Shown piece after piece: positions 14,110-17,480 of a stretch of DNA of 35,218 nt. Below the pieces are notes generated by a model. That model did not search any database and was not told where the DNA came from. It saw nothing but the letters and a program-made list of their open reading frames with translations. This stretch comes from a bacterium. GTDB taxonomy: Bacteria; Bacillota; Sulfobacillia; UBA995. The translations under genes were made by a program, and so were the position numbers. Numbering within the stretch: the stretch's first letter is position 1; each line of letters opens with the position of its first letter. The DNA is taken from positions 1 to 35,218 of the forward strand of contig JAVHLP010000017.1 in assembly GCA_031082145.1 (NCBI GenBank). Reading direction: 5' to 3'.

Positions 14110-14117
14110 ATGGCGCC

Positions 14118-14140
14118 GGAGACCGGCAGCGCCGGTTTCC
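14118..14140. terminator. Hairpin between convergent genes
   Basis: GGAGACCGGC (14118-14127) pairs with GCCGGTTTCC (14131-14140), one G-U pair included, around a 3-base loop. It lies between the convergent stop codons at 14109 and 14153. It may serve as a bidirectional terminator, although no clear T-run follows on either strand. Confidence 0.55.
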
Positions 14141-14152
14141 GGCCGGTTGGTC

Positions 14153-15283
14153 CTAGGGGAAGACCTGGAGTATCCTCACCAGGAGAGCAGCTCGTAGCGG
14201 CAGTTGGTCCACCGCGACCCGCTCGTCAAGGGCGTGCCCGCCGGCCCCCACCGCGCCCAGACCGTCCAGCACCGGCGTCCCCAGAGCGGCCACGAAATTG
14301 CCGTCACTGGCTCCTCCGGTTCCCCCTTCTTCCAGGTCAAACCCCAACTCGCAGGCCAGCGCCCGGGCCTTCTGAAAGAGGGCCACGATGGCCGGGGTGC
14401 GCTCCATGGGGGGGCGGTTGAGCCCTCCTTCTATGGTGAGTTCGGCCCCGGGGGTGACCGGGGTCAAGCTCCTCACCCGCCGGATCAGGGCTTGGGCCAG
14501 GTCCATGGTGGGAACCCGGAAATCGACTTCCGCTTCAGCGTCGGCGGCGATCACATTGGAGCGGCTGCCGCCCCGGATCACCCCGGCATTGAGGGTCACC
14601 CCGGCCTCATAGTCAGTCATCGCATGTAGCCTCAGGATCTGGTGAGCCAGTTCTTCGGTCGCGCTGACCCCCCGGGCGTGGTCGGCTCCGGCATGGGCGG
14701 GCCGGCCGGTTACCCGTACGCGGAAGTCGCCCACACCCTTGCGAAAGGTCTTGATCTGGCCGGCGGGCCCGCCGGCCGGTTCGAGTACCAGGCAGTAGTC
14801 GCTCTGGCGGCCCTCTTCCTCGATCAGCTCACGGGAGACGGGGCTGCCCACCTCCTCCTCGGAGTTCAGGACGGCGACCACCGGCCGGGCGGAGACCAAC
14901 CCCAGCTCCCGCATGGTGGCCATGGCCGCCAGGAACTGCGCGATGCCGCCCTTCATGTCATAGACGCCGGGCCCCCAGGCGTAACCGTCGGCCAGACGGA
15001 AAGGTCGCCGGCAGGCTTCGCCCACCGGCCACACGGTATCCATGTGGCAGAGCACCAGGACCTGGCCGGGACCCGGAGACCCCCAGGTGGCCCGCAGGAG
15101 GTCGCCGTGGGTCCGGCTCGGGATCCGTTCCACCCGAGCTCCTACCCCGGTGAGGCACTCACCCAGAAACCCGGCCAGCCGGTCCAGGGCCTCTTTACTG
15201 GTCGAGGGCGACTCCAGTTCCACCAGCCGCCGGAGCAGCCGCAGGGTATCTTCGTTGCGGGACCTCAGGTTCTCCAGGAGCAC
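14153..15283 (-). CDS. M20-family metallopeptidase (glutamate carboxypeptidase-like)
   Basis: A 376-residue zinc peptidase of the M20A/CPG2 group. The metal and catalytic residues are visible in VLCHMDTVWPVG (His and Asp), WGPGVYDMKGG (Asp), NSEEEVGSP (Glu pair), LVLEPAG (Glu) and GAGGHALDERV (His). The dimerisation domain has GRPAHAGADHARG. CPG2-like enzymes remove C-terminal glutamate or act on acylated amino acids and dipeptides. Start is GTG at 15283 with GAGGAGG upstream. It is the last gene of a leftward operon and begins 4 bases after the stop of the MoaD-like gene, so the two should be translated together. The substrate is unknown. Confidence 0.9.
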   Translation of the reverse strand: MLLENLRSRNEDTLRLLRRLVELESPSTSKEALDRLAGFLGECLTGVGARVERIPSRTHGDLLRATWGSPGPGQVLVLCHMDTVWPVGEACRRPFRLADGYAWGPGVYDMKGGIAQFLAAMATMRELGLVSARPVVAVLNSEEEVGSPVSRELIEEEGRQSDYCLVLEPAGGPAGQIKTFRKGVGDFRVRVTGRPAHAGADHARGVSATEELAHQILRLHAMTDYEAGVTLNAGVIRGGSRSNVIAADAEAEVDFRVPTMDLAQALIRRVRSLTPVTPGAELTIEGGLNRPPMERTPAIVALFQKARALACELGFDLEEGGTGGASDGNFVAALGTPVLDGLGAVGAGGHALDERVAVDQLPLRAALLVRILQVFP

Positions 15284-15287
15284 CTTC

Positions 15288-15536
15288 TCAGCCTCCTCCG
15301 ACCGGGGCGAACACCTTGACCTCGTCCCCCTCCTCCAGCCGGCGCTCCCAGGAGGCCTTCAGGCCGTTGACCGCCACCAGCCAGACCTCATCTTCGGGCA
15401 CTCCGGCCCGGGCGACGGCCTCTCGCACGGTGGCCGCGGGTTCCAGCGTCAGGCTGGTGCCCCTCCTACCGCCCAGGTGGGCGGACAGGATGGCGCAGGC
15501 ACCGAACTTGATGGTGGTCCGCTTACCGTGGGTCAC
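15288..15536 (-). CDS. MoaD/ThiS-family ubiquitin-fold protein
   Basis: An 82-residue beta-grasp protein with the MoaD/ThiS pattern: LTLEPAATVREAVARAGVP, then EVWLVAVNGLKAS, then LEEGDEVKVFAPVGGG. It ends in a free glycine tail (GGG), the feature that is adenylated and thiocarboxylated in sulfur carriers. The GTG at 15536 overlaps the end of the upstream amidohydrolase gene by 14 bases; only a weak AGG precedes it, which suggests translational coupling. The longer frame upstream is antisense-like to the amidohydrolase coding sequence. No MoeB/ThiF activating enzyme or molybdopterin gene is nearby. It may be a sulfur carrier for another pathway or a small protein modifier; the role in this operon is unknown. 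Confidence 0.8.
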   Translation of the reverse strand: MTHGKRTTIKFGACAILSAHLGGRRGTSLTLEPAATVREAVARAGVPEDEVWLVAVNGLKASWERRLEEGDEVKVFAPVGGG

Positions 15537-16737
15537 GGGGCCTGATACCGGCATCTGAGTCAAACAGCACCTCGCCGTCGACGATGACCGTGCGGCAGCG
15601 GGTGTAAGTGGCGAAGGGATGGCCGTCCCAGATGGCGATATCGGCGTCCTTCCCCGCTTCCAGGCTGCCGAGGCGATGCCCGAGGCCCAGGATCTCGGCG
15701 GCGTTAATGGTGACCGCACGGAAAGCGTCCTCCTCCGGCATGCCGTGGCGGACCGCCATCCCGCAATGGACCGGCAGCCAGCGCGTGTTCGAACTCTCGT
15801 CCACCTGGATGGCCACCTTGACACCGGCCCGGGCCAGGATGCCGGGGTTCTCCAGGGTGAACTTCTCCAGTTCCATCTTGAACCTGGCCATGTGCAAGGG
15901 ACCGACCGTGCAGGGGACTCCCCTGGCGGCGAGTTGTTCGGCTACCCGGTAGCCCTCGGTGGCGTGCTCGATGACCAGGTCCAGGCCGAACTCCTCGGCG
16001 ATGCGGACCGCGGTCATGATGTCGTCCGCCCGGTGGGCGTGGATGCGCGCCTTCATCTCCCGGCGGAGCACCCGGGCCAGGGCCTCCCAGCGCAAGTCGC
16101 GCTCGGGGTACTTGGGCCGGCGGGAACCCTCTTTCTTCTCTTCGGCCTCCTCCTCCGCCTGGCTGAACTTCTCCAGGTAGTTGGCTGCCGAGACCAAGGC
16201 CTCCCGCAACACGGCGGCGTTGCCCATGCGGGTGGAGGGCATCTTCTTCTGATCGCCGAAGACCTTCTTCGGGTTCTCGCCCAGGGCCATCTTCATGGCC
16301 TCGGTGCCGGGGATGACCATCTCCTCCACCGTCCGGCCTCGCAGCTTGATGGCCACGCCGGTACCGCCGATGACGTTTCCCGAGCCGGGTCCGGTGAAGA
16401 CGGTGGTCACACCGGCCGCTACCACGTCGGGTACCGAGGGGTCGTCCGGGTTGAGGGAGTCGATGCCGCGCACCTGGGGCGTAAGCGGGTTGGTCATCTC
16501 GTTTCCGTCGTCGTGAGCCCAGACCCAGGGCTCACCGAACACGCAGATGTGGCAGTGGGCGTCGATCAATCCGGGGGTTACCCAACGGCCCGTCGCGTCG
16601 ATGACGCGCGCTCCATCGGGTACCGCTAGGTCCCGGTCCACGGCGGTGATTTTGCCCTTGTCGATAAGGACGGTGCCCGCTTCTACCGTTCCCCGGGTGA
16701 TGGTGAGGATCTTCCCGTTCACGATGGCGACCGGCAA
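15523..16737 (-). CDS. Amidohydrolase (imidazolonepropionase-like superfamily member)
   Basis: A 404-residue metal-dependent hydrolase. The N-terminal strand domain MPVAIVNGKILTITRG leads into the first metal motif TPGLIDAHCHI (H61, H63). ARIHAHRADDI and LVIEHATEGYRVAEQL supply the later histidines, and VAIQVDESS carries the terminal aspartate where relatives usually read ATDHP. The C-terminal IAIWDGHPFATYTRCRTVIVDGEVLF (in parts: IAIWDGHPF, VIVDGEVLF) closes the composite domain. A charged insertion rich in Glu and Lys lies near residue 195-210. The start is TTG at 16737 with AAGGGAGA upstream. It is 14 bases downstream of the HAD gene and overlaps the MoaD-like gene. The substrate is not evident. 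Confidence 0.88.
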   Translation of the reverse strand: MPVAIVNGKILTITRGTVEAGTVLIDKGKITAVDRDLAVPDGARVIDATGRWVTPGLIDAHCHICVFGEPWVWAHDDGNEMTNPLTPQVRGIDSLNPDDPSVPDVVAAGVTTVFTGPGSGNVIGGTGVAIKLRGRTVEEMVIPGTEAMKMALGENPKKVFGDQKKMPSTRMGNAAVLREALVSAANYLEKFSQAEEEAEEKKEGSRRPKYPERDLRWEALARVLRREMKARIHAHRADDIMTAVRIAEEFGLDLVIEHATEGYRVAEQLAARGVPCTVGPLHMARFKMELEKFTLENPGILARAGVKVAIQVDESSNTRWLPVHCGMAVRHGMPEEDAFRAVTINAAEILGLGHRLGSLEAGKDADIAIWDGHPFATYTRCRTVIVDGEVLFDSDAGIRPRDPR

Positions 16738-16751
16738 GATGGATTCTCCCT

Positions 16752-17480
16752 TCAGGGGTTTCCCCGACTTTCGACCGGCGCCCCGGGAACTCCTCCCGGC
16801 ACCCTCAGCACCGCCAGGAGATCCTCCAGCTTCCCCCTCTCGCCCGTGCCGCCGGCGGAGTTGGTGACGTGGAAGACTCTCATACCGGCGGCCCGGGCTC
16901 CCGCCAAATCCATGGCCGGGTCATCTCCTGCCATCATGCACTCCTCTGGCCGGCAACCGAGGAGGCAAGCCACCTCGGCGTAGTACTCGGGATGGGGCTT
17001 GCAGAAGTGCATTATCTCGTAGCTGGTGATGAGATCGAAGGGCAGGTCGGCGAGGCCCGCCCAGCGAAGCCTCTCCCTGACGGCCACGAGAGGGAACACC
17101 GGGTTGGTTGCCACCGCGGTCCTGAATCCCGCCCGCTGAATGGCTTGCACAACCGTCCGGGCGGCGGGAACCGGCCGGGCGTAGGCATGAAGGCGGGGGA
17201 AGTCCCTCCGGTAGAAATCCTCGAAGATGGGCCTGAGTTCTTCCTCCGCCAGGCCCAGGCGGGGGAAGAAGTCCTCGCGGAACACCATCTGGTTGGTGCG
17301 GGAGGGGTCGCGGTCGGCCACCATGGCCCCGGTGCTCCGCATGAGTTCCCTGACGAAGCGCTCCGGCGGGAGGTAGGCCTCCACCCGACAGGCCACCGCC
17401 TGCAGGTAGGCGGGGAGAAAGGTGTCCAGGTCGATGTCCAGCAAGGTACCGTCGAGGTCGAAGAGCACCGCTCGTGGCAA
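16752..17480 (-). CDS. HAD-superfamily hydrolase
   Basis: A 242-residue HAD phosphatase. Motif I is LFDLDGTLLD (nucleophile D8 and acid/base D10), motif II is TAVATNPVFP, the motif III lysine is in CKPHPEYY, and motif IV is MMAGDDPAMDLAGA. A helical cap lies between motifs I and II (residues 15-110). Such enzymes usually dephosphorylate small metabolites such as phosphoglycolate; the substrate here is not known. The start is TTG at 17480 with GGGAGGT about 7 bases upstream. It heads the leftward operon with the amidohydrolase, MoaD-like and M20 genes, and its 5' end nearly touches the divergent PIG-L gene. Confidence 0.9.
   Translation of the reverse strand: MPRAVLFDLDGTLLDIDLDTFLPAYLQAVACRVEAYLPPERFVRELMRSTGAMVADRDPSRTNQMVFREDFFPRLGLAEEELRPIFEDFYRRDFPRLHAYARPVPAARTVVQAIQRAGFRTAVATNPVFPLVAVRERLRWAGLADLPFDLITSYEIMHFCKPHPEYYAEVACLLGCRPEECMMAGDDPAMDLAGARAAGMRVFHVTNSAGGTGERGKLEDLLAVLRVPGGVPGAPVESRGNP

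Follow-up and report, generated by a model that had tools for sequence, protein, structure and literature searches.

A MoaD/ThiS-like protein encoded directly before an M20 peptidase: a probable sulfur carrier parted from its tungsten AOR

Introduction

MoaD-like genes linked to genes for the tungsten enzyme aldehyde ferredoxin oxidoreductase (AOR) have been on record since a 2006 paper reportedly written by Iyer, Burroughs and Aravind. The available portion of that paper describes AOR-linked MoaD genes in the neighbourhood of the tungsten cofactor (PMC1779556). More recently, Putumbaka et al. (2026) presented WorX, a 'ThiS-like' protein encoded near class I tungsten oxidoreductases, whose exact function is unknown according to its authors and for which pterin biosynthesis was predicted; in the available part of the main text, MoaD and MoaE have 0 occurrences (PMC13328260). 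In Aromatoleum aromaticum, a recombinant bacterial AOR reached 16 U/mg when aorDE was added to aorABC, compared with 4.5 U/mg for aorABC alone, and 85 U/mg when tungstate was supplied as well, while the tungsten content listed in Table 1 of the same paper was 0.39 with aorDE versus 1.06 without, and 1.52 after tungstate was added (PMC9295118, as far as available). According to the accessible text of a study of Thermococcus kodakarensis, TK2118 (UblB) has a role in tungsten-cofactor synthesis, and the Ubls of this organism have overlapping roles (PMC11323500). The Moco genes of Dielma fastidiosa are listed without MoaD or MoaE, and without comment in the part of the paper at hand (PMC6147048). 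Neither a MoaD-M20-amidohydrolase operon nor AOR bacteria lacking MoaE were found to be reported in the literature searched, which was partly available as excerpts.

Here, we analyse a MoaD/ThiS-like protein (UBL) of a known kind. UBL resembles the AOR-linked MoaD proteins in that it is MoaD-like, has relatives encoded beside AOR and occurs in a genome with an E1; the described genes are AOR-adjacent, however, while UBL sits in the gene order HAD-AHY-UBL-M20, where AHY is an amidohydrolase (PMC1779556, available portion). The kin of UBL are ThiS-like proteins of AOR operons, as is WorX, but WorX is encoded beside WorL, from which UBL is parted (PMC13328260, available part). Because adjacency to AOR or WorL is lacking at this locus, we call UBL a WorX-like relative rather than WorX proper. 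AorD and AorE of A. aromaticum are likewise MoaD-resembling putative maturation factors of an AOR operon, but they adjoin the AOR subunit genes and were tested in a betaproteobacterium (PMC6365974, PMC9295118, both as far as available). With MoaD, the small subunit of molybdopterin synthase (PDB 1fm0, 1vjk), UBL shares the beta-grasp fold and the GG terminus, whereas canonical MoaD has a MoaE partner, which was not found in the host genome, and UBL scores below the NCBIfam cut-offs. The SAMP and CysO modifiers pair with a JAMM/MPN protease; UBL, in contrast, has a carboxypeptidase G2-like M20 peptidase as its neighbour at the locus. What differs from the described systems is the separation from AOR, the coupling to M20, the pairing with HAD and the MoaE-less setting.

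Results

Organisation of the locus

The window is the whole 35,218-base contig of the host genome (G000; 2.34 Mb, 98.33% complete), and its genes were called with a simple, untrained ORF picker. The genes for HAD, AHY, UBL and M20 follow each other in this order on the minus strand (Table 1). The small ubiquitin-fold protein with a GGG tail that a first-pass annotation had recognised at this position is real, but lies on the minus strand; the plus-strand frame at its coordinates is unrelated. UBL starts with GTG and ends in ...FAPVGGG. An alternative in-frame ATG at 15554 would add six residues, and a clear Shine-Dalgarno sequence is absent before both the GTG at 15536 and this ATG. The junctions are as tight as originally described, with an overlap of 14 nt between UBL and AHY, and with the M20 start at 15283, 4 nt beyond the UBL stop.

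Judging from its sequence and spacing, the AGGAGG motif in the Gly-Gly-Gly codons of UBL (GGA GGA GGC) is likely the ribosome-binding site of M20. Hence, the codons of the 'GGG tail' probably serve this second role as well, and because the likely M20 ribosome-binding site sits in the glycine codons of UBL, we regard the two genes as translationally coupled. Nearby genes on the plus strand encode an oligopeptide transporter, an allantoinase/hydantoinase-type protein, an Asp/Glu racemase, a class III aminotransferase, a member of the aromatic amino acid lyase family and a urocanase, which is consistent with breakdown of peptides and amino acids.

Table 1. Coordinates of the features discussed in the text. 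Positions without a locus prefix refer to the window.
Feature	Location	Strand	Description
HAD-family hydrolase	16752..17480	-	242 aa
AHY, amidohydrolase	15523..16737	-	404 aa, relative of structure 3ooq (PDB name: amidohydrolase)
UBL, MoaD/ThiS-like beta-grasp protein	15288..15536	-	82 aa, C-terminus PVGGG
AGGAGG in UBL Gly-Gly-Gly codons	15292..15297	-	8 nt upstream of the M20 GTG start codon
M20 peptidase	14153..15283	-	376 aa, carboxypeptidase G2 is the closest solved structure
Possible terminator	14112..14133	-	~20 nt past the M20 stop; weak, as 3 such sites were found versus 1.7 expected by chance
AOR#2 of the host	L083:9419-11299		contig C11
UBL beside AOR#3 of the host	L084:12728-12979
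E1/MoeB-like gene of the host	L085:9483-10436
Third UBL of the host	L225:6476-6709	-	contig C11
HAD-UBL open frame of G002	L034:2808-3773	-	321 aa
In-frame TAG in the M20 gene of G001	L104, about 8750	+	TGG in the window
CQLGCF protein, host	L204:4744-5022	+	contig C22
CQLGCF protein, other loci	L205, L207-L213, L215, L217, L218, L220, L070, L250
Adenosylcobalamin-type ribonucleotide reductase	L066:2983-6174	-	intein-like insert (weak model matches)

Fold and C-terminus of UBL

UBL matched the Pfam families Ub-Mut7C (4.2e-9) and ThiS (3e-8), both above the curated cut-offs. The best match of its profile in the PDB was 1vjk, molybdopterin converting factor subunit 1 (E 4.6e-14), from Pyrococcus furiosus according to the Foldseek listing. 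An AlphaFold2 model had a mean pLDDT of 91.5, with a loose tail, and its top matches in Foldseek were structures of mycobacterial MoaD, SAMP1 and 1vjk. Pfam, the PDB profile search, AlphaFold2 and Foldseek thus all indicate a ubiquitin-like beta-grasp fold. UBL missed the cut-offs of the canonical NCBIfam models for MoaD (TIGR01687, 25 bits versus 49.5; NF008347, 21.1 versus 94) and of the model for ThiS (TIGR01683, 20.6 bits versus 37.45).

The protein carries a C-terminal Gly-Gly, as do its AOR-linked relatives. All 24 UBL termini compared end in x-GG, with A, G, I, S or T at x; AOR-adjacent UBLs also include cases of GGG, and a few proteins in our UBL tree have residues beyond GG. The idea that GGG is an additional tail to be processed was rejected, since it is the usual V-x-GG end with glycine as x.

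A Pfam ThiS search suggested that UBL might be the only MoaD of the genome, an outcome that the first-pass annotation had named as evidence against its own reading. This proved not to be the case, since a second UBL lies beside AOR#3 and a profile search revealed a third, giving at least three in the host genome (the profile contained the UBL of L084, which therefore matches by construction). The other Pfam ThiS match above the cut-off, in a ~744-aa frame (L086), was taken by eye for a RelA/SpoT TGS domain. The third UBL is located 3 nt from a gene for a metallo-beta-lactamase-fold hydrolase, and a similar pair occurs in G001 (L226).

Conservation within family f1

UBL directly precedes M20 in all four genomes of family f1, which represent three genera; this junction is conserved more than chance would predict. 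The complete HAD-AHY-UBL-M20 order, of which the first-pass annotation had asked whether it is conserved across genomes, was present in two of them (G000 and G001), while G002 has HAD-UBL-M20 with AHY missing, and G003 has UBL-M20 running to the contig end. Neither the UBL-M20 pairing nor the full order occurred outside family f1 among the loci compared.

Where AHY is missing in G002, a single open frame spans HAD and UBL, which is an apparent natural HAD-UBL fusion; an internal GTG start within this frame is possible. In G001, M20 carries a single in-frame TAG at the position of a TGG tryptophan codon in the window; a sequencing error in this MAG is as likely here as a pseudogene.

Linkage of UBLs to tungsten AORs

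A search with UBL matched 33 of the 61 genomes of the class. For 35 of 58 AOR frames, a recognised UBL was located within 3 kb on the same strand, and two more AORs with an adjacent UBL (L049, L063) were dropped by the filter. The sister family f2 has the arrangement AHY-UBL-AOR in G004, G006 and G007 according to gene calls, and in G005 according to tblastn. Four loci (L055, L059, L064, L070) carry tandem UBL-like frames by the AOR, of which the first lacks GG and has a degenerate end (...LLYRQYFP in three) and the second is GG-ended.

The host genome encodes three AORs, on contigs C11 and C22, and none on the contig of UBL. AOR#3 (L084) has its own UBL at ~1.5 kb, and none was seen near AOR#1 (L082) or AOR#2 (L083). 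In a tree of 58 AORs, from which frames <350 aa were omitted and for which only part of the sister-family AORs were fetched, the four AOR#2 genes of family f1 (G000 L083, G001 L089, G002 L184, G003 L187) were sister to the AHY-UBL-AOR enzymes of f2, with a support of 98/95. No UBL was seen beside any of these four genes in the stretches fetched. A tree of 37 hand-picked UBLs, which is short on signal, grouped UBL with two family members (97/97) inside a clade of 24 rows (91/95) that are mostly AOR-linked.

Distances between UBLs and between AORs were correlated over 28 adjacent pairs (rho 0.395), a value reached by 0 of 2000 shuffles. When UBL was compared with the three AORs of its own genome, AOR#2 fitted best (rho 0.394 versus 0.065 and -0.108; p 0.042, uncorrected), in a weak test that identified only 12 of 18 known partners correctly. 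In G002, AOR#2 was narrowly outscored by another AOR (0.337 versus 0.35).

Cofactor genes and the missing MoaE

The first-pass annotation had reported no E1-like or molybdopterin gene. This is correct for the window, where none of the 30 ORFs scanned had ThiF/E1, Moa, Moe or AOR domains, but not for the genome. As a search elsewhere had been suggested for, we found one ThiF/E1 gene, whose closest NCBIfam models are MoeB and ThiF (below cut-off). We also found an operon with the order moeA - moeA(PBP) - moaA - moaC/MOSC - mogA-type. Furthermore, the genome has three matches to PF00384, a family that includes non-Mo proteins too.

MoaE (PF02391) was found neither in the host genome nor in any of the 8 genomes of its order, even at E<=10; the same search was positive in 11 of 14 control genomes, and in 13 at a looser threshold. 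A diverged MoaE was considered and rejected, as the search of nine genomes at E<=10 gave a match only in G008, outside the order. Because MoaE was not found in the genome, the known parts do not suffice for the standard MoaD reaction. The presence of sulfur carriers together with the absence of their known acceptor is the oddest feature of this system.

The pattern extends to the class. Ignoring kinship, its 61 genomes comprise 13 with both AOR and MoaE, 30 with AOR only, 13 with MoaE only and five with neither, such that the search for MoaE was negative in 30 of the 43 genomes with an AOR. Among these 30, MoaA was present in 20 and an E1 over the cut-off in 27. Of these 20 MoaE-less genomes with AOR and MoaA, 17 are at least 90% complete, and incompleteness alone would account for ~0.75 expected losses.

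A small protein with a conserved 56-residue end (...CQLGCF) was encoded near MoaA at 14 of 21 MoaE-less loci versus one of 20 MoaE-bearing loci (Fisher p 5e-5, with kinship ignored and several contigs short). The surroundings of MoaA were sampled in 21 of the 22 MoaE-less genomes with MoaA (G024 left out) and in 20 of the 26 MoaE-bearing ones (G043, G049, G054, G056, G058 and G060 left out). Those CQLGCF proteins that were tested had no match in Pfam or NCBIfam, and the protein may be a regulator, a substitute for MoaE, or neither.

AHY, HAD and M20 as neighbours

AHY is close to the solved amidohydrolase 3ooq (E 4e-128). A scan of named genomes matched 591 stretches with 414 relatives, from which 80 loci were kept. 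A UBL was present in 11 of these loci and absent from 69; an AOR followed it in 10 of the 11, the 11th being the G001 contig. Six of the 11 (L104, L105, L110, L112, L113, L137) repeat genomes already sampled and five are new. The idea that AHY explains the linkage was rejected, since in the 80 loci it mostly occurs without UBL or AOR; for the same reason, the pathway of AHY can hardly be read from gene order alone. A fuller cluster, AHY - asparaginase-type hydrolase - HAD - ... - UBL - AOR, was found in L114, L115 and L175 of named Fermentithermobacillaceae; the asparaginase-type hydrolase is assigned to PF01112 by its relative in L042.

M20 can be aligned with carboxypeptidase G2 along its length. 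Three further loci (L127, L128, L132) have no UBL but carry an M20 homologue (49-50%) by AHY, on the opposite strand. M20 and AHY may well be catabolic partners.

According to the coordinates, HAD and UBL share 4 nt at their stop-start junction in L043 and L045, and in L046 the two genes abut. In G017, G026 and G059, a HAD-UBL pair lies next to aspartate kinase and has no adjacent AOR. Other neighbours around the HAD-UBL loci are ribonucleotide reductase, NrdR, SfsA and flavin reductase. The HAD cluster includes an AOR in L045 and L114. In L066, an adenosylcobalamin-type ribonucleotide reductase with an intein-like insert lies near NrdR, SfsA and a HAD-UBL pair (Table 1).

Discussion

Our results point to UBL as a MoaD-type sulfur carrier of the AOR-linked branch ('WorX') that has been parted from its AOR and serves mainly AOR#2, a reading to which we assign a probability of about 0.6. 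UBL is read as a parted carrier because AOR#2 is kin of the AHY-UBL-AOR enzymes of the sister family and UBL is kin of AOR-linked UBLs. The role of sulfur carrier considered in the first-pass annotation is supported by the relatives adjoining tungsten AOR genes, the GG end and the E1 in the genome; the 'undescribed pathway' envisaged for it mostly is not, since linkage of UBL and AOR has already been published. Several findings run against a parted carrier that serves AOR#2: the contig of UBL carries no AOR, MoaE was not found in the genome, the pairing test is weak, HAD-UBL pairs also lie by aspartate kinase, many AHY homologues are located away from any UBL or AOR, and tungsten content was lower with aorDE until tungstate was supplied (PMC9295118, as far as available).

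According to this proposal, the single E1/MoeB-like enzyme of the genome would adenylate the C-terminal glycine of UBL, a sulfur donor would convert the adenylated end into a thiocarboxylate, and the sulfur would then be delivered to the pterin dithiolene of the tungsten cofactor, mainly for AOR#2. The simplest history is that an AHY/HAD-UBL-AOR operon was ancestral, and that AOR separated in family f1 while M20 took the place after UBL. AOR and UBL would have split in the ancestor of the family, with UBL remaining with HAD and AHY and now being co-translated with M20. M20, AHY and HAD would be enzymes of peptide and amino-acid breakdown, supplying aldehydes that the AORs oxidise.

UBL could also be one of several interchangeable carriers for a common Mo/W pterin pool that feeds AORs and PF00384-type enzymes, with no tie to AOR#2. 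The excess of UBLs (at least three) over the single E1 and the three PF00384 matches, in a family that includes non-Mo proteins, fit such a general MoaD, as do the overlapping Ubl roles in T. kodakarensis (PMC11323500, available text). Yet many AOR types have an operon UBL of their own, and UBL and AOR distances are correlated, which makes this reading unlikely. Alternatively, the closest partner of UBL may be HAD, the pair moving among AOR, aspartate-kinase and hydrolase settings as part of a separate, undescribed thio-pathway. The overlapping or abutting HAD and UBL genes, their single frame in G002 and the three aspartate-kinase loci without adjacent AOR would agree with this. We nevertheless consider it quite improbable, as a shared thio-biosynthetic gene was not found around the HAD-UBL loci, the other neighbours are general, and the HAD cluster of two loci contains an AOR.

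The first-pass annotation also raised the possibility of a protein tag, conjugated to proteins and then trimmed or removed by M20, in the manner of SAMP1 or of CysO with its JAMM protease. The GG terminus, the tight coupling of UBL and M20 in all four family genomes and the presence of SAMP1 among the closest folds are what such a tag would show, but the remaining evidence runs against it and renders it very improbable. M20 is nearest to carboxypeptidase G2 rather than to a JAMM protease, its coupling to UBL is restricted to family f1, and its homologues lie by AHY without UBL in three other loci. Moreover, the GG end is already in place: the V-x-GG terminus of UBL matches that of most relatives, which leaves no extra tail to trim.

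The absence of MoaE may be related to a MoaE-independent synthase, to which the AOR-linked UBLs, UBL being one such carrier, would deliver sulfur, and whose acceptor part would be either the uncharacterised CQLGCF protein of the moeA-moaA operon or the UBL-coupled HAD; molybdopterin or tungstopterin would then be made without MoaE. We put this forward as a doubtful proposal.

ThiS/MoaD-like proteins linked to AORs have been in the literature since 2006, and when they were given the name WorX in 2026, their exact function was still stated to be unknown (PMC1779556, PMC13328260, both as far as available). Family f1, in which UBL and AOR have come apart naturally, is of help in testing whether their pairing is functional. 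Moreover, 17 genomes with a completeness of at least 90% have AOR and MoaA without MoaE, a pattern that indicates a gap in a textbook pathway, for which there are candidates testable in E. coli.
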